From a virus, in the IMG/VR virus record IMGVR_UViG_3300005095_000164, positions 1 to 31,720 of that record: a DNA stretch of 31,720 bases, one strand, 5' to 3'. The notes under the pieces were generated by a model. That model did no database searches, was not told the origin of the DNA, and saw only the letters and a program-made list of their open reading frames with translations. This document shows positions 5,855 through 31,601 of the stretch, in pieces. Numbering within the stretch: the stretch's first letter is position 1; each line of letters begins with the position of its first letter. Made by a program: the position numbers and the translations under genes.

Positions 5855-5880
5855 TGTTTTTTAGTGATTTTTGATGGTTT

Positions 5881-6060
5881 TGCCACATCCTGCCACATAG
5901 CCTGCCAGTAGGAAACGCCCAGCCACAGGGGCTTTGCGAGGATTCGTGCCACTTCCTGCCACATTCTGCCACATTATGCCAAGAGAATTTTCGATGTGGC
6001 ATAGCGCGCAAACGCCCTTGTAGTGGGGCTTTGCGAGGATTTTCTGCCACATTGCCAGTA
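5881..6060. promoter_or_regulatory. Control region R1, left arm (TGCCA decamers plus two GC hairpins)
   Basis: TGCCA sites begin at 5881, 5891 and 5903, then at 5947, 5957, 5967 and 5977 (exactly 10 bp apart), then 6045 and 6053. An opposite-strand TGTGGCA is at 5995-6001. Two GC-rich hairpins lie between the clusters: AAACGCCC with GGGCTTT (5913-5935) and GCAAACGCCC with GGGCTTTGC (6008-6034). Read outward (leftward), it has the same order of parts as the right arm at 6314-6424, with one extra hairpin and site cluster. Confidence 0.75.
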
Positions 6061-6145
6061 AAATCGCAGAAAATTGATTTATAAATTTTAGGTATTCGTC
6101 GTCTTATATAGTGGTTATCTTGGCTGGACTTTCGTGTGTTTTTTT

Positions 6146-6230
6146 TTCCTGAAAGAAAGGAAGTGGATGGGATTTTCTCTTGACATTGTTATCTTTCTTG
6201 TAAGCTCAACCTTTTCCCTTTTTTAAGGAA
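6146..6230. repeat. Dispersed inverted-repeat element E4 inside R1
   Basis: The ends TTCCTGAAAGAAAGGAAG and CCTTTTTTAAGGAA pair imperfectly around a pyrimidine-rich centre. Closely similar copies sit in the same place in R2 (25382) and R3 (31226). Confidence 0.65.
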
Positions 6231-6231
6231 T

Positions 6232-6281
6232 GCGAAGCGAAGCGTAGCTATTTTATACAATACATTACACACTTGTTACAC
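6232..6281. promoter_or_regulatory. R1 core: GCGAAG repeats and two TTACAC sites
   Basis: GCGAA-GCGAA-GCGTAGC (from 6233) is followed by TTACAC at 6265-6270 and again at 6276-6281, 11 bp apart. TTACAC is close to the half-site of the dyad at 6464-6483 read on the other strand. The same core is found at 25468-25519 and 31309-31359. Confidence 0.65.
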
Positions 6282-6313
6282 TATTTTTTATTTTTTAAAA
6301 ATTATATAAAAGA

Positions 6314-6424
6314 TGTGGCAATGTGGCATAAAAACCCTGCAAATGCCCAGCCACAGGGCGTTTGCGAGCCTTGCCACATCCGAAATTCTCTTGGCATTCA
6401 CTGGCATTATGTGGCAGAATGCCA
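6314..6424. promoter_or_regulatory. Control region R1, right arm
   Basis: Order: TGTGGCA (6314), TGTGGCA (6322), the hairpin GCAAATGCCC/GGGCGTTTGC with 7-base loop AGCCACA (6339-6365), TGCCACAT (6372), then TGGCA at 6392, 6402 and 6412 (period 10) and TGCCA at 6420. It is matched almost part for part by 25553-25663 and 31393-31503. Confidence 0.75.
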
Positions 6425-6463
6425 GATAAAAAGACCTAAAACTGCTCAAATCAGACCCTATAT

Positions 6464-6483
6464 TTGTGTAATACACTACACAA
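6464..6483. promoter_or_regulatory. Dyad TTGTGTA-N6-TACACAA upstream of the tape measure operon promoter
   Basis: Perfect 7+7 inverted repeat with a 6-bp spacer. Its centre is about 60 bp upstream of the expected start of transcription from the promoter at 6497-6526, a position typical for an activator that contacts RNA polymerase. The 6+6 form is kept at 25691-25708 and 31541-31558. Confidence 0.7.
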
Positions 6484-6496
6484 ACAAGCTAAAATT

Positions 6497-6526
6497 TTGC
6501 AATTATAACTACTAATACGCTATAAT
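6497..6526 (+). promoter_or_regulatory. Promoter of the tape measure operon
   Basis: TTGCAA (6497-6502), 18-bp spacer, TATAAT (6521-6526). R3 has the same arrangement at 31573-31601. Confidence 0.7.
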
Positions 6527-10659: not shown

Positions 10660-10838
10660 AAAAAGAAAACTCCTAAAGAAAGAAAAACTCTCAACCACCA
10701 AAAACCCAATCCTTCCCTTTTTAAAGAAAAAAAATAAAAGAAATTTACTACTTTTTACTACTTTTTAGCTATTTAAGCGCTTATCTATCTTAAAAAAGAA
10801 TATAACATATATATATAAAAACACAAAATGGAGAAAAT

Positions 10839-10880
10839 ATGAAAAAAATCACAAAAAATTTTAAAAAATACCCTGTTTAA
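10839..10880 (+). CDS. Array A unit 1 mini-ORF, 13 residues
   Basis: MKKITKNFKKYPV, with GGAG six bases before the ATG. The stop TAA is part of the next unit's -35-like TTTAAGAGC. Too short to assign a function; listed because the unit has a promoter and a ribosome-binding site. Confidence 0.3.
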   Translation: MKKITKNFKKYPV

Positions 10881-10942
10881 GAGCTTCTTGCCAAAAGTTT
10901 TTAATATAACATATATATATAGAAACACAAATAAGGAGCCAA

Positions 10943-11020
10943 ATGGAAAGAAATTTAAAGAAATTTGCATTTTTTTTACTAAAAATACTAATTAAGAGAA
11001 GATTTGGTTATCTTCTGTAA
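10943..11020 (+). CDS. Array A unit 2 mini-ORF, 25 residues
   Basis: The ORF starts MERNLKKFAFFLLKILIKRR and ends FGYLL, with AAGGAG six bases before the ATG. The peptide has a basic start, a hydrophobic middle and then a basic end, which could insert in or lie on a membrane. It is similar in its first ten residues to the products at 11168, 11278 and 16065. The stop TAA overlaps the next unit's TAATATAAC. Confidence 0.4.
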   Translation: MERNLKKFAFFLLKILIKRRFGYLL

Positions 11021-11167
11021 TATAACAATTATATAAGTAGTTAAGAAAGGTGCAAAAATGGAAATTTAAAGAAATTTAAGGTTTTTTTTAAAAATAAGTG
11101 GTTTAGGAGCTTCTTAGTGAAACTTTCCAATATAACATATATATAGAAAGTTTAATAAGGAGTAAAA

Positions 11168-11257
11168 ATGAGAAATTTTAAAAAATTCACTATTTTTTTA
11201 AAAATAGATGGTTTAAGAGCGTTTTCTTTCAAATTTTATAATATAACAATAGTATGA
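11168..11257 (+). CDS. Array A unit 4 mini-ORF, 29 residues
   Basis: It begins MRNFKKFTIFLKIDGLRAF and has AAGGAG before the ATG. The coding stretch runs through the next unit's promoter and ends at a TGA within its leader. The same basic plus hydrophobic start is found in the sibling ORFs. No function can be given. Confidence 0.4.
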   Translation: MRNFKKFTIFLKIDGLRAFSFKFYNITIV

Positions 11258-11277
11258 GAAAGTCAAAAGGAGAAAAT

Positions 11278-11367
11278 ATGAGAAATTTAAAGAAATTGCA
11301 ACTTTTTTTTCAAAAAAAGGCAATTAAGAGCTTCTTTCAAAAAGTTTTTAATATAACAATTATATAG
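11278..11367 (+). CDS. Array A unit 5 mini-ORF, 29 residues
   Basis: It begins MRNLKKLQLFFQKKAIKSFF. AAAGGAG lies eight bases before the ATG. It is nearly the same length and design as unit 4 and also reads through the next promoter (ending N-I-T-I-I, encoded by the AATATAACAATTATA box). Shared ends therefore come from the shared promoter sequence. Confidence 0.4.
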   Translation: MRNLKKLQLFFQKKAIKSFFQKVFNITII

Positions 11368-11388
11368 AAACAAACAAAAGGAGTAAAA

Positions 11389-11607
11389 ATGAAAAAAAAC
11401 CAAGAAAAACTTAAAATTAAACTAACTAAAGTTTTTATTTTTAAAAACTATGTTATAATAAATATAGAAAAGCTGATAAGGACATTGCGGTGTCTTTACC
11501 AGCCCGCTCTTAATAACAAAGAGCGGCAAAGGAAAGCCCGAGGTGCTACCAAAAGGGTAGCTAAAAAAATAAAATCTCAAAAAAATAAAAAAAAGGAATC
11601 ACAATGA
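11389..11607 (+). CDS. Array A unit 6 ORF, 72 residues, overlapping the leader RNA element
   Basis: It starts MKKNQEKLKIKLTKVFIFKN after AAAGGAG and ends in a very basic tail. Its stop codon overlaps the ATG of the 11604 gene by four bases (ATGA), normally a sign of coupled translation. However, its second half (from about 11461) is the structured leader RNA described below, and a second promoter (TATAAT at 11454-11459) lies inside it. The loops of that RNA change length between copies, which does not fit conserved protein coding. It may be a leader peptide whose translation affects RNA folding. Confidence 0.35.
   Translation: MKKNQEKLKIKLTKVFIFKNYVIINIEKLIRTLRCLYQPALNNKERQRKARGATKRVAKKIKSQKNKKKESQ
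11454..11459 (+). promoter_or_regulatory. Internal promoter before leader RNA copy 1
   Basis: TGTTATAAT, with transcription expected to start near 11466, just before the first hairpin of the leader RNA (11477). No clear -35 box. Confidence 0.5.
11477..11561 (+). ncRNA. Structured leader RNA element, copy 1 (three hairpins)
   Basis: Hairpin 1: TAAGGACA pairs with TGTCTTTA around the loop TTGCGG (11477-11498). Hairpin 2: CCGCTCTT/AAGAGCGG with loop AATAACA (11504-11526). A linker CAAAGGAAAG leads to hairpin 3: GCTACC/GGTAGC (11545-11561). The gene start is at 11604. Copy 2 at 12156 has the same three hairpins with compensatory base changes. I do not recognise a known riboswitch class. Confidence 0.7.
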
Positions 11608-12101
11608 CAAATTCAAAAGTAAACACAAACAAGGCATTAGTAAAAGAGGCAGTTAAAGTATATACAAAGTATTTAACAAAAGTTCAAAACCAAAAAAACG
11701 CTCAAAAAAGAGCCGAAGAGGTAGTTGCAAAGGTAGCTAAAAAAGGAGACGAAGCCTTAAAAAGAGCTATCAATGGCACAAAAATCTGGCTAAATAAAGA
11801 TGTTATAGGTTTAGATAAAAACATTAAAAAGTTAGCTGGTAAAAATATAAAAATTGGAAAAGATATTGAAATAGATAAATACACAACTAAAAACGAAGAG
11901 CTTTTAATAAATGCAAAGGCATTAGCTTGTTTAGCTAAAGTAGCTAAAGCTCAAGAGGAAGAGAGATATGCACATATAGTTGAAAGTGCAGATAAAATTG
12001 AGGTATATTTAAGCGAGTATCCAATTCTTGAGGCTTGGAACTATATTGATGATAGTGCAGAAGACGAAAACGCAGAGCTTGTTTTAAGCTTCGCAATCTA
12101 A
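11604..12101 (+). CDS. Lysine-rich protein of unknown function with acidic C-terminus
   Basis: A 165-residue protein with AAAAGGAATCACA before the ATG. The first half is basic and helical (NKALVKEAVKVYTKYLTKVQ, then AEEVVAKVAKKGDEALKRA) and the last 30 residues are acidic (YIDDSAEDENAELVLSFAI). No domain is recognised. It is the first full gene after array A and carries leader RNA copy 1, the element also found before the helicase and the 16384 and 17346 genes. A shared control of these four genes is likely, so an early or replication-linked role, perhaps DNA binding, is possible but unproven. A strong terminator follows at 12106. Confidence 0.6.
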   Translation: MTNSKVNTNKALVKEAVKVYTKYLTKVQNQKNAQKRAEEVVAKVAKKGDEALKRAINGTKIWLNKDVIGLDKNIKKLAGKNIKIGKDIEIDKYTTKNEELLINAKALACLAKVAKAQEEERYAHIVESADKIEVYLSEYPILEAWNYIDDSAEDENAELVLSFAI

Positions 12102-12105
12102 GCGC

Positions 12106-12126
12106 AAGCCCCTAAAAATGGGGCTT
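12106..12126 (+). terminator. Intrinsic terminator
   Basis: AAGCCCC-TAAAAAT-GGGGCTT, a perfect 7-bp stem followed by CTTCTTCTTT, five bases after the stop of the 11604 gene. Confidence 0.85.
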
Positions 12127-12155
12127 CTTCTTCTTTCAGGAAAAAAAAATCCTTA

Positions 12156-12248
12156 ATTATTGAGAGCGTTAAGGCGCTTTCAATAATCCTCTCTTAAGTA
12201 ACAAAGAGAGGAAAGGAAAGTAACAATGAGGCGCTACCAATGGGTAGC
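12156..12248 (+). ncRNA. Structured leader RNA element, copy 2 (upstream of the helicase)
   Basis: Hairpin 1: ATTATTGAGAGCG/CGCTTTCAATAAT, 13 bp with one G-U pair and loop TTAAGG. Hairpin 2: CCTCTCTT/AAGAGAGG with loop AAGTAACA (12188-12211). Linker AAAGGAAAGTAACAATGAGG. Hairpin 3: GCTACC/GGTAGC (12233-12248). Relative to copy 1, hairpin 2 swaps a G-C pair for a T-A pair, which preserves the stem. The linker also holds a ribosome-binding site and an ATG. Confidence 0.75.
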
Positions 12249-12321
12249 CAACAAAAGAAATAAAATCTCAAAAAAAACAAAAAGAAAGGATTTATTATGG
12301 AAAAAATTAAAAACCATTTAA
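12226..12321 (+). CDS. Possible 31-residue leader peptide overlapping the helicase start
   Basis: ATG at 12226 lies four bases after GGAAAG. The peptide starts MRRYQWVANKRNKISKKTKR and ends 25 bases inside the helicase gene in another frame. Ribosomes translating it would pass through hairpin 3 of the leader RNA. This would suit control of the helicase by upstream translation, but copies 3 and 4 have no matching ORF. Confidence 0.3.
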   Translation: MRRYQWVANKRNKISKKTKRKDLLWKKLKTI

Positions 12322-14003
12322 CTAAAAATTTAGGCTGGAGTAGTGAAAGAGCTTTTACTTATGCAAGTAAAGCCTTAAAATTTGCAAATATAAAAAACGA
12401 ACAAACTGTAGAGTATGGAACAGGCGCGGATTTTTATGAGGAAATCTATAAGAACACTTGTTCAATTAATTGTGACTACTCTACATTTGTTTTTGCAGAA
12501 TCCAAAACACCAAGATTCGCTTTAACAATATTAGATATAATGAAAAACGAGAATGGAGATATAATAGATGTGACTCTTAAAAGTAACGGTAATGTTACCG
12601 ATTTACACACTAAAGTAAGCGCATTTAAACAATTTGGCGCTCAGAAGTGGCTGAAGAGCCTTGGCAAGAACGCTATGTATAATACAGCGCGCTCAGATTT
12701 TTTACCTGATGAGCCTTTTGGTTACAACCCTAAAACAGGAACTTTTAACTTTTTTGTTAAGGGTCTTGCAGGTAAAAGCTACCAAAAAATGGACATAGAA
12801 TTAAATGAGGATAATATTATTGATTATTTAAAAAGCTATACCCCAGCCATATATCTTATTGCAAAAAATGTTTTTGGAGAAAATTTATTAATTAAATATG
12901 CAATAAATAGATTAGCTTATGTGTTACAAAATAACACAAAAGCGCCTACTGCACTTGTATTAGTTGGAGAACAGGGAACTGGAAAAAGCCTGTGGACCGA
13001 TGTTATAAGTAAAACTTATTTCGGAAAATATGGAAAAATTATGAGTGGCGATGAGATAGTAGGTAGTTTTAGAGATAATCTGATAAACACTACATATGCA
13101 GCGGTGCCAGAATTTTTTACCGATATTAATAACAAAAAGGCAACAGGAGTTCTTAAATCTCTTATTACAGATAAAGAAATCGTGATAAATAGAAAAGGTG
13201 TTACAGCTGTTACAATTAGTAACAATATTACGCTTGATTTGACAACTAACCACATTAACGCTATACACATTGAAGAAACAGATAGACGCTTTTGTATTGC
13301 AGAAAGCCAAAATAAACAGCTGAAAGATTTGGTATGGGCAAATTTAGAAGAGTTTGGTTTGGATAGAGAAAAAAATCGCAAAAATTATATGAAGATTTTT
13401 GTTGAGGAAATTCTTCAAAAGGAGCTTGAAATATTTGGGCGTGTATTATACAGCTATGACGCAAATTTTATGGATATTGTTAATATACCAACAACAAAGG
13501 CAAAACTTGAGGCATTAGCGCAAACAAATAGTGACACTTTTATGCCAGTTTTTTATTTAAATAATGGTAAATATAGCGATTTTACGGAAGTTCTTTTAGA
13601 TAATTTAGCTTACAAAAATGGAGAAGCTGTTGCAAAAAAATATGCCATATCTTTATTAAAAAGGATAAAAAATGAACTGGAAGAAATTGGTGGGCTTACC
13701 AATGCAACTCAAGCGGATATTCTTGAGGCAACAACAAACGGCGATATTTTTATAGGTATAAATGAAAATGGAGAAATGAAGATAGATAATTATACTAAAA
13801 AATATAAAAATGCAAAGTTAGTGGGAGCTAAATTTAAGAATTTACCACAAAAAAGAATTAGTAATAAAAGAGTGAGAATACCTAAAGTTGTTGATTTAGA
13901 AAAATTAGAAAAAGCTATCAATCTCTTGAGTTTAGATAATACTCAAGAAAACCTTGAATACAAGAAAATGCAAGAAGAGTTTGAAAAAATAATAGGCAAG
14001 TAA
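12297..14003 (+). CDS. SF3-type replicative helicase, DUF5906-like
   Basis: A 568-residue protein with AAAGGATTTATT before the ATG. The Walker A motif GEQGTGKS (residues 224-231, Lys230) sits in the context LVLVGEQGTGKSLWTDVIS. It is followed by an acidic Walker B-like AAVPEFF near residue 265 and the sensor/arginine region TTNHINAIHIEETDRRF (ending at residue 332). This arrangement is typical of the helicase part of phage and plasmid primase-helicases (D5/P4 alpha class, DUF5906), which act as hexamers unwinding DNA at the fork. The N-terminal 200 residues do not show a primase motif that I recognise, so the primase may be absent or encoded elsewhere. Only clear replication gene in the window; transcribed with its own leader RNA element. 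Confidence 0.8.
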   Translation: MEKIKNHLTKNLGWSSERAFTYASKALKFANIKNEQTVEYGTGADFYEEIYKNTCSINCDYSTFVFAESKTPRFALTILDIMKNENGDIIDVTLKSNGNVTDLHTKVSAFKQFGAQKWLKSLGKNAMYNTARSDFLPDEPFGYNPKTGTFNFFVKGLAGKSYQKMDIELNEDNIIDYLKSYTPAIYLIAKNVFGENLLIKYAINRLAYVLQNNTKAPTALVLVGEQGTGKSLWTDVISKTYFGKYGKIMSGDEIVGSFRDNLINTTYAAVPEFFTDINNKKATGVLKSLITDKEIVINRKGVTAVTISNNITLDLTTNHINAIHIEETDRRFCIAESQNKQLKDLVWANLEEFGLDREKNRKNYMKIFVEEILQKELEIFGRVLYSYDANFMDIVNIPTTKAKLEALAQTNSDTFMPVFYLNNGKYSDFTEVLLDNLAYKNGEAVAKKYAISLLKRIKNELEEIGGLTNATQADILEATTNGDIFIGINENGEMKIDNYTKKYKNAKLVGAKFKNLPQKRISNKRVRIPKVVDLEKLEKAINLLSLDNTQENLEYKKMQEEFEKIIGK

Positions 14004-14043
14004 ACTATCAGAAGAGAAAACACAATTCTCTTCTTTTTTAGGA

Positions 14044-15746: not shown

Positions 15747-15836
15747 TAAAAAGTCCACTATTTTTTTCAATTTTAACTACTTTAGAGCTTTTTCTCTCAT
15801 AAATACAATATAACATATATATAGAAAGGAGAAAAA

Positions 15837-15887
15837 ATGAAGAAATTTAGAGAAATTTGCAAAAATTTACTAAAAAAAGGCTATTAA
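15837..15887 (+). CDS. Array B unit 1 mini-ORF, 16 residues
   Basis: MKKFREICKNLLKKGY, with AAAGGAG before the ATG. Its stop TAA is in the next unit's ATTAAGAG box. Very short; function unknown. Confidence 0.3.
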   Translation: MKKFREICKNLLKKGY

Positions 15888-15942
15888 GAGAAGATTTGGC
15901 TATCTACTATAATATAACAATTATATATTAACAAGGAGCTAA

Positions 15943-15993
15943 ATGAAAGAAAAAAAGAAAATTAAAGAAATTGAAGATTTTTTTTTAAAATAA
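15943..15993 (+). CDS. Array B unit 2 mini-ORF, 16 residues
   Basis: MKEKKKIKEIEDFFLK, with AAGGAG before the ATG. Charged rather than hydrophobic, so the peptide is not conserved between units. Confidence 0.3.
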   Translation: MKEKKKIKEIEDFFLK

Positions 15994-16064
15994 GCTGTTT
16001 AAGAGCTTCTTAGCTAAAATTTATAATATAACAATAGTATAGAAATTAACAAAGGAGCTAAAAT

Positions 16065-16139
16065 ATGAAAAATTTAAAGAAATTTGCACTTTTTTTTCAA
16101 AAAAAGGTGTTTAAGAGCGTTTTTCTTCTAACTCTATAA
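16065..16139 (+). CDS. Array B unit 3 mini-ORF, 24 residues
   Basis: It starts MKNLKKFALFFQKKVFKSVF and ends LLTL, with AAAGGAG before the ATG. This is the unit closest to the array A peptides (10943 and 11278): basic start, hydrophobic middle, basic, then hydrophobic end. Its stop codon overlaps the next unit's TATAATATAAC. Confidence 0.4.
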   Translation: MKNLKKFALFFQKKVFKSVFLLTL

Positions 16140-16169
16140 TATAACAATATAAGAAGGAGTTAAAAGAGA

Positions 16170-16271
16170 ATGCCAAAGAAAGAAAAAAAACAAAAACCTT
16201 TTAGGTTGGATATAACCAAAAAAAGTAAAAAATTTGAAGAAATTTTAAATTTTTTACCAAAAAAGGGATAA
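16170..16271 (+). CDS. Array B unit 4 ORF, 33 residues
   Basis: It starts MPKKEKKQKPFRLDITKKSK and ends FEEILNFLPKKG, with AAGAAGGAG upstream. Unlike its siblings it has lost the FALFFQKK core and is charged. TATAACCAAA inside it can pair with TTTGGTTATA at about 16289, and AAAAGGG/CCCTTTT spans its stop codon, so the transcript may fold into a long stem before the next leader hairpin. Confidence 0.4.
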   Translation: MPKKEKKQKPFRLDITKKSKKFEEILNFLPKKG

Positions 16272-16324
16272 AAAGTCCCCTTTTGCAAATTTGGTTATAT
16301 ATATAGGTGTAACAGAAAAACAAA

Positions 16325-16346
16325 GGCGCTCCTAAAAAAAAGGAGC
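16325..16346 (+). ncRNA. Leader hairpin, copy 3
   Basis: GGC then GCTCCT/AGGAGC around seven A bases (16328-16346). Compared with GCTACC/GGTAGC in copies 1, 2 and 4, two base pairs have changed on both sides, so the stem is kept. The A-rich tail and AAAGGAAAGTAAA lead to the ATG at 16384. Confidence 0.65.
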
Positions 16347-16383: not shown

Positions 16384-17271
16384 ATGGAAAAAATTAAATT
16401 TTTACAAAAAGATATAAAAAGATTAAACAAAAACATTGGTAAACTTGAAGCTAAAAAAGCTGAAGTTGTGGCTATTTTAAAAGAAAACCCGCAAAACGGA
16501 ACTATGGAAGATAAGTTAAAAGAAATAAATAAAAGAATTGACTTTTATAATACATTACTTAAAAATACTAAAAAAGCTCTTGCAGAGCTTACTAAAGAAG
16601 AGCCTAAAAAGGAAGAAATAGCTAAAGAAGAAACTATTGAAGAGATAGAAGAAAAACTTCTTGCAACAGTGCAAGCTCTTATTTTTGACACAGGCTTGTT
16701 GGTGGAAAGCTGTGTAAGTGAAGACGCTTATAACGCTTTAAGCTTTTTAGCTAATACTAATATAATAGAGCTTGATGATAACACGCAAGCTCTTGTTGAT
16801 AAAGCCTTAAAACATAAAGAGCTTATTAAAGAGAGAAGCGAGCTTAAACAAGAGCTTAAAGAACTTAGTTTAGAGCTTGAGCTTGCAAAAACAGATGACG
16901 ACACTATATATATAGAAGAGCTTGAAAAAGAAATAGAAGAAGTAAGAGAAAAGCTTTCTTCTTCTTCTTTAGATAGTGATTTAGATTTAACACAACTAAA
17001 AGCGGAATTAGCTAAAAAAAATCTGGAAATTGCAGAGCCTACACTACAATGTGCAGAGTATTTAATAAGTGAAAATGAGGAAAACGCTACTAAAAAACTT
17101 AACACTATTTTAAAAGCGTTATTAGTAGTTTTAAACAAAGCTAAAGCTTTTGATACTAAAAAATATGTGGATATAGGTAAGGATAACTGGGGCAACACAG
17201 TAGCTTACCTTACTAATAGTAACGATGGCGCTGGTGTAGCGCCAGAAATTGAGCCTGACTATATTATATAA
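16384..17271 (+). CDS. Coiled-coil protein of unknown function
   Basis: A 295-residue protein with AAAGGAAAGTAAA before the ATG. It is mostly charged helix with strong heptad character: residues 1-75 (KIKFLQKDIKRLNKNIGKLE) and about 140-205 (ELKQELKELSLELELAKTDD, then EELEKEIEEVREKL). A run of Glu/Lys lies between (KEEPKKEEIAKEETIEEIEE). The C-terminus is different, short and glycine-containing (DIGKDNWGNTVAYLTNSNDG). The start resembles that of the 17346 product (M-K-x-L-x-x-D-I-K-x-I). No family is recognised. The leader hairpin links it to the helicase and the 11604 gene. A structural scaffold in replication or a host-takeover protein is possible. Confidence 0.6.
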   Translation: MEKIKFLQKDIKRLNKNIGKLEAKKAEVVAILKENPQNGTMEDKLKEINKRIDFYNTLLKNTKKALAELTKEEPKKEEIAKEETIEEIEEKLLATVQALIFDTGLLVESCVSEDAYNALSFLANTNIIELDDNTQALVDKALKHKELIKERSELKQELKELSLELELAKTDDDTIYIEELEKEIEEVREKLSSSSLDSDLDLTQLKAELAKKNLEIAEPTLQCAEYLISENEENATKKLNTILKALLVVLNKAKAFDTKKYVDIGKDNWGNTVAYLTNSNDGAGVAPEIEPDYII

Positions 17272-17284
17272 TATAAAAGAAACC

Positions 17285-17306
17285 GAGGTGCTACCATTTG
17301 GTAGCC
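17285..17306 (+). ncRNA. Leader hairpin, copy 4
   Basis: GAGGT then GCTACC/GGTAGC around the loop ATTT (17290-17305), 40 bases before the ATG at 17346. The sequence GAGGTGCTACC is the same as in copy 1, and the following AACAATCATATT is A-rich like the others. Confidence 0.65.
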
Positions 17307-17345: not shown

Positions 17346-17837
17346 ATGAAAAAATTAGAAAGAGATATAAAAAAAATAGAAAAAGGCATTAAACTAACAC
17401 AAGATATAGTAAGGCTGTTGATAGAGAAGGAAGCTAATAATAAATATAATACAACTAAAGATTTATTAAGATTAGTTATATTTTATAATTTTGACACTAA
17501 ATTAAACGAGAAATTATCAATTTTAATAGATAATGATTTTGAAGAAGAGGTGTTGTTTAGTTATGAACAAATTAACAAAAATAAAGCTCTACTAAGAGAT
17601 TTTGTTATAAATGAATTTGTAGAAAGAGGTGAAACCCCCCAAATATTGGAAATATTTGAGCTAATGCAAGAGTATGAGTATGCCTTTGAGTATATTGCGG
17701 AAATTTTTTCTGATTTTGAGCTTTTAAAAAAAGAAGTTGAACTTTGCGCTCTATTAAAAGAAATGGATAAAAAAGATTGGCAAGAGCTAAAAATGACAGC
17801 TAAAGCTAATTATGTTATGGCTTTTGCGCAGGCTTAA
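17346..17837 (+). CDS. Helical acidic protein of unknown function
   Basis: A 163-residue protein with AAAAGGATAGATA before the ATG. Entirely helical by appearance, with an N-terminal charged helix (KKLERDIKKIEKGIKLTQDI) and later paired helices rich in Glu, Phe and Leu (LEIFELMQEYEYAFEYIAEI). No motif is recognised. It follows the coiled-coil gene by 74 bases, with leader hairpin copy 4 between them, so both probably respond to the same control. A strong hairpin follows its stop codon. Confidence 0.6.
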   Translation: MKKLERDIKKIEKGIKLTQDIVRLLIEKEANNKYNTTKDLLRLVIFYNFDTKLNEKLSILIDNDFEEEVLFSYEQINKNKALLRDFVINEFVERGETPQILEIFELMQEYEYAFEYIAEIFSDFELLKKEVELCALLKEMDKKDWQELKMTAKANYVMAFAQA

Positions 17838-17858
17838 GAGAGAAGAGGCTTTCTCTCT
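17837..17858 (+). terminator. Hairpin terminator
   Basis: AGAGAGAA-GAGGCT-TTCTCTCT, a perfect 8-bp stem starting one base after the stop of the 17346 gene, followed by TTCTTCT. Confidence 0.7.
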
Positions 17859-17895
17859 TTCTTCTATGATAAAAAAAACAAAAAAAGGACTATAA

Positions 17896-18030: not shown

Positions 18031-19212
18031 ATGATAATGAATGATATATCAAGATATAGCTATAATATATCTTTCAAAAAGATAAAGAGAGCTTATATAG
18101 TAAGATTAGAAAAGCTTATGCAAGCGCAAAATTATATATATAATATGGCGCTTAGATTGCATAACAAAGGGTTTAGTAAAGAACAAATAATTGTTTATCT
18201 AAATGAAAAATTTAAAAATATAACTACTAAAGATGGCAAAACTTGTTATGTGTGTAATAAAAGTGTAATACAAACAGCTGTAAACAATTATTTTACTGCA
18301 TATTTTAATTATATAAAAGGAAATAATGCAGGTAGTTTAGAGGGCTTTAGATATGAAAAACCGAAACCAAAAGATATTAATGATTACTCCAACTTTTTTT
18401 ATCTAAATGACTTTCTTTTAAAAGATTTTGGTAGCTTAATATTAAATAATACAAAGAAAAGGATAGAGTTTAAGTTTTTAGATATAAAGCTTTATATTCC
18501 TTTTAAATATAATATAAATAACATTACCAAATTAAGAAGTATAAGATTATATTATAAAGAGGGATATATAAAAGTTATGATTGAAATGTATAAAAATACA
18601 GAAGTTAATATTAATAAATATAAGAGTAAAAAAGTGGTAGCTATTGATATAGGAAGCTCAAATCTTTTAACTTGTTTTTATAATTTTAAAAACCCAGAAA
18701 TTTACACATTCTCTCAATGTTACTTTAAAAAAAAGGAAAACTTGAGATTTGGAGATTTAGAGTATTATAAAAAATATATAATAACTAATATCTTAAACAA
18801 GTTCATTTCTAATATTAAAAAATATGGAGTTAATGTAATTTATATAGGTAATATGATGAGTGCGAAGTATACTAAAGATAAGAAAGATAAGAGCTTTTTT
18901 ATCTCAATTTTCCATTATTACTTATACATTAAGTTAGACAGAATAGCTCGAAAAAATGGTATTATTGTTAAAAGAATTGACGAAAGCTATACGAGTAGAG
19001 CCAGTTTTTTAGACGGAGATAAAATGGAACATTTCTCCTCTTTTTCTGGAAAAAGAATAAAAAGAGACATATATTTGACACAAAATGGTTACTTAATTAA
19101 TGCAGATATAAACGGTGCCGCTAATATATTAAGAAAAATTGATAGTAGATATAAAAATGATTTAACAGAAAAGCTTATATTGCAAAAGCCCAAAAGATTT
19201 TTATTCTCTTAG
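18031..19212 (+). CDS. Stand-alone TnpB-like RuvC protein (IS200/IS605 OrfB family)
   Basis: A 393-residue protein with AAAGGAAGGTAACATA before the ATG. The N-terminal half matches the RNA/DNA-binding part of TnpB. The RuvC parts are: VVAIDIGSSN with Asp206; an expected second block VNVIYIGNMMSAKYTK with no Glu; DESYTSRASFLDGD with Glu318; and LINADINGAANILRK with Asp359. The CxxC zinc finger of typical TnpB is replaced by FSGKRIKRDIY, as in a known TnpB subgroup in which the catalytic Glu appears to have moved to the ESYTS motif. A D-E-D set is therefore present, and RNA-guided cleavage is possible but unproven. No TnpA gene and no clear element ends are visible, so it may be a domesticated phage gene. 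Confidence 0.8.
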   Translation: MIMNDISRYSYNISFKKIKRAYIVRLEKLMQAQNYIYNMALRLHNKGFSKEQIIVYLNEKFKNITTKDGKTCYVCNKSVIQTAVNNYFTAYFNYIKGNNAGSLEGFRYEKPKPKDINDYSNFFYLNDFLLKDFGSLILNNTKKRIEFKFLDIKLYIPFKYNINNITKLRSIRLYYKEGYIKVMIEMYKNTEVNINKYKSKKVVAIDIGSSNLLTCFYNFKNPEIYTFSQCYFKKKENLRFGDLEYYKKYIITNILNKFISNIKKYGVNVIYIGNMMSAKYTKDKKDKSFFISIFHYYLYIKLDRIARKNGIIVKRIDESYTSRASFLDGDKMEHFSSFSGKRIKRDIYLTQNGYLINADINGAANILRKIDSRYKNDLTEKLILQKPKRFLFS

Positions 19213-19291
19213 GCTTTTTTCTCCTTTTATTATCTCAAAAAACAAAACAAAGGAATGCGTATGAAAGGAAAGTAACATTGTAACTTTTTGT
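19213..19291 (+). other. TnpB 3' flank: terminator-like stem and orphan leader sequence
   Basis: AAAAGCC near 19186 pairs with GGCTTTT at 19212-19218, then CTCCTTTTATT follows. Next comes ATCTCAAAAAACAAAACAAAGGAAT, close to the tails of leader RNA copies 1 and 2, and GAAAGGAAAGTAACATTG (19263-19280), 17 of 18 matching 12211-12228 before the helicase. No gene follows. It could be the remnant of a leader, or part of a guide RNA made from the tnpB 3' end. Confidence 0.4.
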
Positions 19292-19300
19292 TACAGTAAT

Positions 19301-19315: not shown

Positions 19316-19615
19316 TTACTCAAGGTCAAGTCTTTTTATATAATCTTTTAAAACAGGAAGAAGTCCTTGTGGTAGTTGTTTAGATTTGCCATCTATTAAA
19401 ATATACTTAGCGTATTCAGCTACATTTCGTAACACTATCTGTTTTTGTGTTACTTTTGGTAACATATAAGAAGCCTTTAGATTTCCTGTATCTACTGGAG
19501 TCACGATTTCAGCTTGAGTTTTTAAAGAATAAGCTACCTTTGGTAACTCCTCTTCTATCTTTTTGTTGATTTTTTGTTTTAATAGAAGCTCAATATCTAC
19601 TTTTGATAAGTTCAT
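19316..19615 (-). CDS. HK97 gp10-like tail completion / neck protein
   Basis: A 99-residue protein, last of the head-tail connector genes. The motif VTPVDTGNLKASYMLPK (about residues 39-55) is the hallmark of the HK97 gp10 / tail completion family, followed by a beta strand and YAKYILIDGKSKQLP. These proteins link the tail to the connector or help close the tail tube. It is short for the family (often 110-150 residues) but has both conserved halves. It starts one base after the preceding gene ends. A leftward promoter just beyond its stop would not transcribe it. Confidence 0.8.
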   Translation of the reverse strand: MNLSKVDIELLLKQKINKKIEEELPKVAYSLKTQAEIVTPVDTGNLKASYMLPKVTQKQIVLRNVAEYAKYILIDGKSKQLPQGLLPVLKDYIKRLDLE

Positions 19616-25198: not shown

Positions 25199-25309
25199 TG
25201 GCATTTATGCCGCATAATGCCAGTAAATGCCAAGAGAAAATTCTATGTGGCAGGCGCGCAAAGCCCCTGCACAAGGGCGTTTGCGAGGATTTTATGCCAG
25301 ATGCCACAT
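25199..25309. promoter_or_regulatory. Control region R2, left arm
   Basis: TGGCA at 25199, then TGCCA-type sites at 25208, 25218 and 25228 (exact 10-bp steps), TGTGGCA at 25246, the GC hairpin GCAAAGCCC/GGGCGTTTGC (25258-25284), TGCCA at 25295 and TGCCACAT at 25302. It lacks the second hairpin and outer cluster seen in R1 and R3. Confidence 0.75.
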
Positions 25310-25381
25310 AAATTAGAGGAAAACTGTTTATAAAATTTTTAAGTAGATAGTTAGCTATCAAGTAGCTCGGAGTTTATTTTT

Positions 25382-25467
25382 TTCCTTAAAGAAAGGAAGA
25401 GGATTGATTTCTCCTGCAAGATTGTATCTTTTATTAAAAGCCCCACCTTTTCCCTTTTTTTTAGGAA
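25382..25467. repeat. Dispersed inverted-repeat element E11 inside R2
   Basis: The end TTCCTTAAAGAAAGGAAGAG pairs with the partner end finishing CCTTTTCCC...TTAGGAA. Same place as E4 in R1 and E13 in R3. Confidence 0.65.
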
Positions 25468-25519
25468 CAGCGAAGCGAAGCGTAGCTATTTTATACAATA
25501 TATTACACACTTGTTACAC
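25468..25519. promoter_or_regulatory. R2 core: GCGAAG repeats and two TTACAC sites
   Basis: GCGAAGCGAAGCGTAGC, then TTACAC at 25503-25508 and 25514-25519, 11 bp apart as in R1 and R3. Confidence 0.65.
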
Positions 25520-25552
25520 TATTTTTTTATTTTTAAAAATTATATAAAAGAA

Positions 25553-25663
25553 GTGGCATATGTGGCACAAACACGCGCAAAGCCCCAGTAGATGGTCGTT
25601 TGCAGGCTATGCCACATAGAAAAATCTACTGGCATCTCTTGGCAAAATGTGGCAGAACTGCCA
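25553..25663. promoter_or_regulatory. Control region R2, right arm
   Basis: GTGGCA at 25553, TGTGGCA at 25561, a hairpin with GCAAAGCCCC and a changed partner GGTCGTTTGC (25577-25603), TGCCACAT at 25610, TGGCA at 25630, 25640 and 25650, and TGCCA at 25659. It is kept although no operon starts on this side. Confidence 0.75.
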
Positions 25664-25690
25664 AGAGAAACATAAAAAAATGACGACTAA

Positions 25691-25708
25691 TGTGTAATAC
25701 ACTACACA
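25691..25708. promoter_or_regulatory. Dyad TGTGTA-N6-TACACA at R2
   Basis: Same dyad as in R1 and R3, but here only 10 bp from the 3' end of the XhlA-like gene, with no TTGCAA/TATAAT promoter after it. Confidence 0.65.
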
Positions 25709-25717
25709 AACAGAAGG

Positions 25718-26053
25718 TTATTTATGAGTATAAAAGTAATTAGAAACAAAAACAATAACTGCAATAGTAATACTAACTGCAATTTTCCAAAAATTGGCTC
25801 CTATTGTTTCTATCTTTTTTTCAATATTACTAACACGCATATCTAAAGGAAGCGCTTCTTTGTTTTCTTCTTTTAGAACAGAAACATCTTTTTCTAAATG
25901 AGCTATTTTTTCTTTTACAATATGAATTTCGCTATTTTGGTTACGAATAATCTTGTTTAGAGAAGTATAGTCCTCTTTTAATCTTTCAACTATTGTTGCA
26001 GTTCTTTCTGTATTTATAAGAATTTTTTCTATTTTATCATTTTGACTTGACAT
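25718..26053 (-). CDS. XhlA-like coiled-coil membrane protein (lysis)
   Basis: A 111-residue protein. The ATG at 26053, with GGGAGTATTG before it, is preferred over the one at 26095 inside the preceding gene. It has a long coiled coil (NDKIEKILINTERTATIVER, through IAHLEKDVSVLKEENKE) and a C-terminal membrane span (FWKIAVSITIAVIVFVSNYF). This is the layout of XhlA/haemolysin-type proteins, which act with a holin in phage lysis. It follows the holin-like gene. The stop codon faces R2. The call is from topology and context. Confidence 0.6.
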   Translation of the reverse strand: MSSQNDKIEKILINTERTATIVERLKEDYTSLNKIIRNQNSEIHIVKEKIAHLEKDVSVLKEENKEALPLDMRVSNIEKKIETIGANFWKIAVSITIAVIVFVSNYFYTHK

Positions 26054-30945: not shown

Positions 30946-30971
30946 GCTTTTTTAGTGTTTTTAGTGGGAAG

Positions 30972-31150
30972 TGCCGCATTGTGCCACATAGCGTGCCAGT
31001 GCCAAAGCCCCAGTGGTAGGGCGTTTGCGAGCTTTTATGCCGCGTTTTGCCACTTCCTGCCACATTCTGCCAAGAGAAAAAAAGATGTGGCAGGCGCGCA
31101 AAGCCCCATCAGCTGGGCGTTTGCGAGGAATCTCTGCCACATTGCCGCAT
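30972..31150. promoter_or_regulatory. Control region R3, left arm
   Basis: TGCCR-type sites at 30972, 30982 and 30994; a GC hairpin CAAAGCCC/GGGCGTTTG (31003-31027); sites at 31038, 31048, 31058 and 31068, all 10 bp apart; TGTGGCA at 31086; a second hairpin GCAAAGCCCC/GGGCGTTTGC with the loop core ATCAGCT (31098-31124); TGCCACAT at 31135 and TGCCGCAT at 31143. Same parts in the same order as the R1 left arm. Confidence 0.75.
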
Positions 31151-31225
31151 ATTTTGGATTTTTTGTTTTATGTTTTTTTACATTTACTGCCATTGTATGG
31201 GCATATCGGTTTTTCTGTATTTTTT

Positions 31226-31308
31226 TTCCTGAAAGAAAGGAAGAGGTTATTGTTTCTCTTAGATTGTTATCTTTCTTTAAGCTTGAACTCTTTCTCTTTT
31301 TTAAGGAA
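31226..31308. repeat. Dispersed inverted-repeat element E13 inside R3
   Basis: The ends TTCCTGAAAGAAAGGAAGAG and CTCTTTTTTAAGGAA pair imperfectly around a pyrimidine-rich centre, as in E4 and E11. Confidence 0.65.
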
Positions 31309-31359
31309 CAGCGAAGCGAAGCGTAGCTATATATACAATATATTACACACTTGTTACAC
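31309..31359. promoter_or_regulatory. R3 core: GCGAAG repeats and two TTACAC sites
   Basis: GCGAAGCGAAGCGTAGC, then TTACAC at 31343-31348 and 31354-31359, 11 bp apart. Confidence 0.65.
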
Positions 31360-31392
31360 TATTTTTTTATTTTTAAAAATTATATAAAAGAA

Positions 31393-31503
31393 GTGGCATA
31401 TGTGGCACAAACACGCGCAAAACCCCATCAGCTGGGCGTTTGCGAGCCTTGCCACATACGAAATTCTCTTGGCATCTCTTGGCAAAATGTGGCATAACTG
31501 CCA
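31393..31503. promoter_or_regulatory. Control region R3, right arm
   Basis: GTGGCA at 31393, TGTGGCA at 31401, the hairpin GCAAAACCCC/GGGCGTTTGC with loop core ATCAGCT (31417-31443), TGCCACAT at 31450, TGGCA at 31470, 31480 and 31490, and TGCCA at 31499. Spacings are the same as in the right arms of R1 and R2. Confidence 0.75.
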
Positions 31504-31540
31504 GTAGAAAACTTCAAAAACACCAAAAAACAATACCTAA

Positions 31541-31558
31541 TGTGTAATATACTACACA
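31541..31558. promoter_or_regulatory. Dyad TGTGTA-N6-TACACA at R3
   Basis: Perfect 6+6 dyad ending 14 bp before the -35 box of the rightward promoter, the same geometry as at R1. Confidence 0.7.
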
Positions 31559-31572
31559 AACAAGCTTAAACT

Positions 31573-31601
31573 TTGCAATTTTAATACTAATAAGTTATAA
31601 T
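31573..31601 (+). promoter_or_regulatory. Rightward promoter after R3
   Basis: TTGCAA (31573-31578), 17-bp spacer, TATAAT (31596-31601). An AAAAAGGAATAAACT leader and the ATG at 31627 follow. Confidence 0.7.

Follow-up and report, generated by a model that had tools for sequence, protein, structure and literature searches.

Stabilising hairpins at mRNA 5' ends and RNase III leader sites place a stable hairpin at the 5' end of the message, before an open ribosome site. The boxB hairpin of phage lambda has a conserved loop, and the ESAS of Cluster K phages are imperfect inverted repeats with variable spacing. To our knowledge, few phages beyond the model systems have known leader RNAs. In the parts of the literature drawn on here, boxA has the consensus GYTCTTTAANA (PMC5725501); the putRNAs of phage HK022 are about 70 nt long and consist of two stem-loops, with putL directly behind an early promoter and two copies (putL and putR) in the phage (PMC9378689); and in the SAS/ESAS of actinobacteriophages one element recurs ahead of the start codons of several genes of a single phage, with a role described as unclear (PMC7302621).

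We analysed a whole IMG/VR virus record of 31,720 bases (hereafter the window), for which a first-pass annotation had proposed a leader RNA shared by four genes. We find one hairpin, P3, before all four genes and two further hairpins, P1 and P2, in the first two leaders. Judged from the sequence, this is a genuine structured leader that is non-coding and kept by compensatory change. Its kind is ordinary, that of a phage leader RNA, while its form is, within the literature searched, new and apparently phage-specific, with P3 occurring four times and P1-P2 twice. The elements of the four leaders and their genes are the following.

11454..11459, + strand: TATAAT 12 nt upstream of P1, the likely -10 box of leader 1 (read by eye; absent from the sigma-70 scan list)
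11472..11503, + strand: P1 of leader 1, 13 of 14 positions paired, centre TTGCGG
11504..11526, + strand: P2 of leader 1, 8 pairs, loop AATAACA, abutting P1
11528..11536, + strand: linker AAAGGAAAG of leader 1
11545-11561, + strand: P3 of leader 1, GCTACC-AAAAG-GGTAGC, 5' flank GAGGT
11604..12101, + strand: 165-aa gene behind leader 1, no family match
12106..12126, + strand: terminator-like hairpin between gene 11604 and leader 2
12156..12187, + strand: P1 of leader 2, 14 of 14 positions paired, centre TTAAGG
12188..12211, + strand: P2 of leader 2, 8 pairs, loop AAGTAACA, abutting P1
12212..12220, + strand: linker AAAGGAAAG of leader 2
12233-12248, + strand: P3 of leader 2, GCTACC-AATG-GGTAGC, 5' flank GAGGC
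12297..14003, + strand: helicase/primase-like gene behind leader 2 (DUF5906, E 5.4e-15; VapE-like, E 5e-7)
16328-16346, + strand: P3 of leader 3, GCTCCT-AAAAAAA-AGGAGC, two compensatory changes
16384..17271, + strand: 295-aa gene behind leader 3, no family match
17267..17272, + strand: TATAAT, possible -10 box of leader 4 (read by eye)
17290-17305, + strand: P3 of leader 4, GCTACC-ATTT-GGTAGC, 5' flank GAGGT
17346..17837, + strand: 163-aa gene behind leader 4, with a weak phrog_5156 match alone (E 0.0056)

Leaders 1 and 2 share the order P1 (14 positions and a tetraloop), P2 (8 pairs), AAAGGAAAG, P3 and an A-rich tail with ATAAAATCTCAAAAAAA. P1-P2 spans 55 nt in leader 1 and 56 nt in leader 2, with 0 nt between the two hairpins. 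We compared both copies over the 22 pairs of P1-P2 and found 8 double changes, no one-sided change, 13 unchanged pairs and 1 pair broken in leader 1. Seven of the double changes lie in P1 (14 pairs) and one in P2 (G-C to T-A). One-sided changes would be expected otherwise, so their absence suggests that the pairing is under constraint. As a control, one arm was slid by 1 to 3 columns, which left no more than one double change. Both copies have G-U at two P1 positions. The complementary strand would have A-C there, and a DNA palindrome a mismatch, which argues for a + strand RNA rather than a DNA inverted repeat. Abutting hairpin pairs are found twice on the + strand of the window, exactly at leaders 1 and 2, and once on the - strand, compared to 12 in total (maximum 2 per shuffle) in 100 one-strand shuffles. 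The first-pass annotation had described the P2 exchange, the loops AATAACA and AAGTAACA and the TTnnGG centres just as we see them; the seven double changes of P1 and the 0-nt junction had been overlooked.

P3 is a 6-bp hairpin present in four + strand copies, with AGGC or AGGT preceding the stem in every copy. Its last base lies 42, 48, 37 and 40 nt upstream of the ATG of genes 11604, 12297, 16384 and 17346, respectively, so the annotated placement of GCTACC/GGTAGC ahead of four genes is correct, at 37-48 nt. The stem sequence and the 5' flank are better kept than the loop. In leader 3, 2 of the 6 pairs are doubly changed with pairing intact, which agrees with the two pair-preserving changes noted earlier for this copy; 41 of 500 shuffles equal this result, making it weak alone. 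GCTACC is the sole 6-base arm (with at least three G/C) that forms at least three hairpins in the window, and such an arm was found in 0 of 200 shuffles. The arms GCTACC...GGTAGC occur three times in the window, compared to 2 matches in total across 1000 dinucleotide shuffles. The pattern of one shuffle count was drawn from the four copies, and the arm-unspecified test on 200 shuffles is the fairer one. The loops of 5, 4, 7 and 4 bases shift the frame between copies, which argues against coding, as had been pointed out before, and also against a DNA operator with fixed spacing.

The statistics for P1-P2 rest on two copies and those for P3 on four. The earlier claim of a structured leader RNA common to four genes is supported; the part found in all four is P3 alone, and P1-P2 is confined to two leaders, being absent from leaders 3 and 4. 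Fold z-scores for leaders 1 to 4 are -4.93, -7.11, -2.72 and -1.90, with 0, 0, 2 and 8 of 200 shuffles folding as well; leaders 3 and 4 fold just modestly better than shuffles.

To look for relatives of the leaders we used known families, patterns and covariance models. Rfam 15 gave no match over the window at the gathering score, which agrees with the annotated description of an unnamed structured RNA; with relaxed settings, freshwater-2 came closest, upstream of leader 2 (12075-12151; 19.1 bits where the family requires 49.9; E 2.7). In public viral contigs the P3 pattern matched 53 stretches, none leader-like with the flanks inspected, the P2 hairpin pattern matched 11, none leader-like in context, and P2 plus linker matched none. 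The covariance model R2 matched 1 of 397 genomes (E 9.9e-4), 0 of 120 and 0 of 104, in sets that overlap and were searched with no positive control, so that the empty results are weak. The single match sits between two chromosomal genes and was taken as chance. Among 41 sources of loci only L097 fell below 0.001 with R2, and the next ones were mostly matches to the P2 pattern. Six further sources gave no R2 match, 62 sources gave none up to E 1, and the Nitratiruptor phages NrS-1, NrS-2 and NrS-4 gave one at E 4.2. R1 covered 60 loci and the window, with best E values of 0.3 (22 sources), 0.68 (3 phages) and 0.061 (35 sources) on the loci. Within the window, the R1 match at 19530-19554 on the - strand (E 0.0054) lies inside ORF 19316-19615 and is not counted as a copy, and R2 has weak extra matches from E 0.039, the first one antisense to leader 1. 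Two GCTACC/GGTAGC palindromes, in L091 and L092, lie within a coding frame. Thus the viral contigs, the fetched loci, the Nitratiruptor phages and the genomes of the presumed host phylum that were searched yielded no other credible copy, and the covariance test is confined to the copies in this phage.

The window encodes tail, minor head, terminase, helicase/primase-like, lytic transglycosylase and TnpB-like proteins. Its terminase has 9 relatives in public viral contigs, the best about 40 % identical; relatives at about this identity are spread over several phyla, so the nearest kin are remote. The terminase alignment matched 21 loci in genome contigs. No relatives were found for the helicase or the gene 11604 protein in public viral contigs, nor for the capsid and portal among 50,697 phage records, and the helicase matches 10 of 397 genomes at 26-33 % identity. 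The phage list is topped by Nitratiruptor phages NrS-1, NrS-3 and NrS-2, with Pseudomonas and Bordetella phages more identical over a shorter stretch. A genome search with matches in 235 of 397 genomes gave mostly short A/T-rich alignments, from which only those of the tape-measure gene were used; this gene matches loci of 3 genomes of the same phylum as a genome titled uncultured Campylobacteraceae. On these similarities Campylobacterota are the likely host phylum, not a proven one.

Terminator-like sites end gene 11604 (12106-12126), the helicase gene (14010-14034) and gene 17346 (17836-17859). Leaders 1 and 2 precede one gene each, closed by such a site, and leaders 3 and 4 precede two consecutive genes before the final one. 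None of the + strand terminator-like sites (12106, 12110, 14010, 16660 and 17836) lies inside a leader, and leader 2 has no clear -10 box immediately upstream. The ribosome-site segments of leaders 1 to 4 have predicted unpaired fractions of 0.88, 0.55, 0.76 and 0.88; that of leader 2 is the least open, with AAAUCU predicted to be able to pair with AGGAUUU. P3 overlaps none of the four ribosome sites. With an assumed 16S tail, Shine-Dalgarno-like pairing of the P3 flank amounts to -9.6 kcal/mol in copies 1 and 4, -5.6 in copy 2 and -3.9 in copy 3. BLASTP among the proteins of leaders 1, 3 and 4 gave short weak alignments, the best (E 0.013 as a single comparison) covering 19 residues, suggesting that the leaders were not merely carried along by gene duplication. 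The single-sequence AlphaFold model of the gene 11604 protein is unusable (pLDDT 40). At 12225-12320, the linker AAAGGAAAGTAACAATG of leader 2 can be read as a ribosome site plus ATG that opens a 31-aa basic frame overlapping the helicase start, a frame not kept in the other leaders.

Other repeats are found across the window. Ten diverged units of about 110 bp occupy 10799-11396 and 15807-16280, six ending just before leader 1 and four before leader 3. Most have a TTAAGAG-like box, all have a AATATAACA core, and nearly all have a ribosome site plus ATG opening a tiny K/F-rich frame. ATATAACAATNNTATA with at most 2 mismatches has 13 matches in the window, compared to 1.8 expected; the array pattern also has 13 matches in public viral contigs, none with an array. 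Three related, G+C-richer intergenic blocks (5880-6515, 25205-25734 and 30960-31584) carry CGCAAAGCCCC...GGGCGTTTGCG inverted repeats and end with TGTGTAATACACTACACAAACA, an operator-like palindrome. A pyrimidine tract followed by YAGGA/AAGGA, often with an A run, is present in more than 20 copies on both strands, mostly intergenic, and is perhaps a repressor or stoperator-like site. Examples are the following.

1877, 4176, 12130, 14033, 14726, 27109, + strand: pyrimidine-tract repeat
31238, 27052, 25394, 6158, 4112, 2840, - strand: pyrimidine-tract repeat

Aligned with three TnpB relatives from viruses, the TnpB-like protein at 18031-19212 (PF07282, E 3.3e-7) retains the aspartates of RuvC motifs 1 and 3, has K in place of E in the second RuvC motif and lacks the C of TSKC; possibly it is nuclease-dead and resembles the phage TldR regulators. 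Downstream of its gene, the stretch 19225-19295 (+ strand) has ATCTCAAAAAA and GAAAGGAAAGTAACA in common with leader 2, followed by a TGTAAC-TTTTT-GTTACA hairpin with no + strand gene after it. It may be either the remnant of a degenerate leader or the guide-bearing 3' end of a TnpB RNA.

We tentatively favour, at a little short of an even chance, that the leaders are always-formed 5' UTR modules in which P1-P2 protects the message and P3 recruits, giving joint high expression. The leaders of four phage transcripts would have been copied within one genome and then have diverged under selection for RNA folding. Transcription would start from the nearby TATAAT boxes. In leaders 1 and 2, the end-to-end stack of P1 and P2 would lie at the 5' end or close to it, where it may protect the message and stop the transcript start from folding back onto the ribosome site. 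P3 with its purine flank AGGYG may be a common recognition element for the ribosome or for a phage or host RNA-binding protein, and recruitment would take place there, with an open, A-rich ribosome-binding region following downstream. A replication-type set of genes would in this way be expressed jointly and at a high level. The lack of a terminator in the leaders and the mostly open ribosome sites are more in line with a leader that stabilises or recruits than with an on/off switch. That the leaders control early genes is plausible from the sequence, and the interpretation made in the first-pass annotation is, as a whole, partly supported. Alternatively, the leaders may represent a new class in which a coaxial P1-P2 acts on RNA polymerase or message life and P3 serves as a tag, one factor tuning a number of unrelated genes of replication type. 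These genes would form an RNA regulon, fed by the two tandem promoter-like arrays directly upstream of leaders 1 and 3; we consider this alternative unlikely.

Another explanation is that P3, and P1-P2 with it, is an operator RNA through which a specific phage protein represses or activates translation of the four genes in a feedback. The better conservation of the P3 stem and 5' flank than of the loop is as in a specific binding site, and P3 precedes genes that do not look like paralogs. However, no RNA-binding protein was identified, the product of gene 11604 having no family match and an unusable model, and P3 is clear of all four ribosome sites; we find this reading unlikely. Put-like processive antitermination by P1-P2, with read-through of terminators such as 12106-12126, is possible by analogy with HK022 and in our view rather improbable. 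The two abutting stem-loops of 55-56 nt close behind TATAAT in leader 1 would suit it, as would the terminator-like hairpin after gene 11604 with leader 2 beyond, devoid of a clear promoter of its own. Against it, R2 has no match in the HK022 interval 26000-39000, the bulge, the non-canonical pairs and the triplex of put cannot be made out, and neither the second copy past the terminator nor P3 would have a role. A site of the lambda nut type, with boxA in P2 and P3 as boxB, is suggested by GCTCTT plus TAACA in leader 1 and CTCTT plus TAACA in leader 2. Yet two or three additional bases interrupt the motif, which lies in a conserved stem, and in P3 it is the stem and not the loop that is kept. 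With at most one mismatch, GYTCTTTAANA has 27 matches in the window compared to 22 expected, none in a leader on the + strand, and a boxA-like sequence that precedes the 16S genes of some of 30 rrn loci does not match the leaders. On the split motif and the lack of a proper boxA match in the leaders we reject this reading, to which we give almost no credence.

If the inverted repeats acted as DNA, they could be operators, cruciforms or a replication origin beside the helicase/primase-like gene. The G-U pairs conserved in P1, the variable P3 spacer, the constant orientation and the similar distance to four start codons speak against this, and we judge it very unlikely. A ligand-sensing riboswitch or attenuator seems to us just as improbable: AAAUCU of leader 2 could pair with the GAGG before P3 or with the ribosome site, but by inspection this alternative pairing is weak in leader 1 and not seen in leaders 3 and 4, no terminator lies inside the leaders and no Rfam family matches. 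Finally, with few copies in A/T-rich sequence, chance or a coding artefact might be suspected. The count of pair changes, the count of abutting hairpins and the arm-shuffle test oppose chance, and the frame shifts between loops oppose coding, leaving this explanation barely credible.

Four copies in one genome offer natural material for testing a small RNA regulon, and compensatory variants are built in, in P3 of copy 3 and in P1 of leaders 1 and 2. The significance would rise sharply if P1-P2 or P3 acts. Should P1-P2 be an antitermination RNA, RNA-only antitermination would reach beyond lambdoid phages.

Compared with the described systems, the likeness to the HK022 putRNAs lies in two neighbouring stem-loops in a phage leader, present in two copies (leaders 1 and 2). 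The putRNAs suppress termination through the beta' zinc-binding domain. In contrast to them, P1 and P2 are plain hairpins 0 nt apart, P3 is an additional element shared with two leaders that have no P1-P2, and the R2 search of HK022 26000-39000 gave no match up to E 5. With the lambda nut and rrn boxA sites the leaders share a hairpin and a nearby pyrimidine-rich motif, but no uninterrupted boxA is present in them, the motif is paired, and the P3 loops (AAAAG, AATG, AAAAAAA and ATTT) differ. As in SAS/ESAS, an element is repeated just upstream of several starts, here as four copies of P3; unlike SAS/ESAS, there is no conserved 13-bp motif, the four ribosome sites differ, the sequences and hosts are others, and compensatory changes point to RNA pairing in P1 to P3. 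Relative to 5'-end stabilising hairpins and RNase III sites, the sequence common to the four leaders exceeds what generic stabilisers share.
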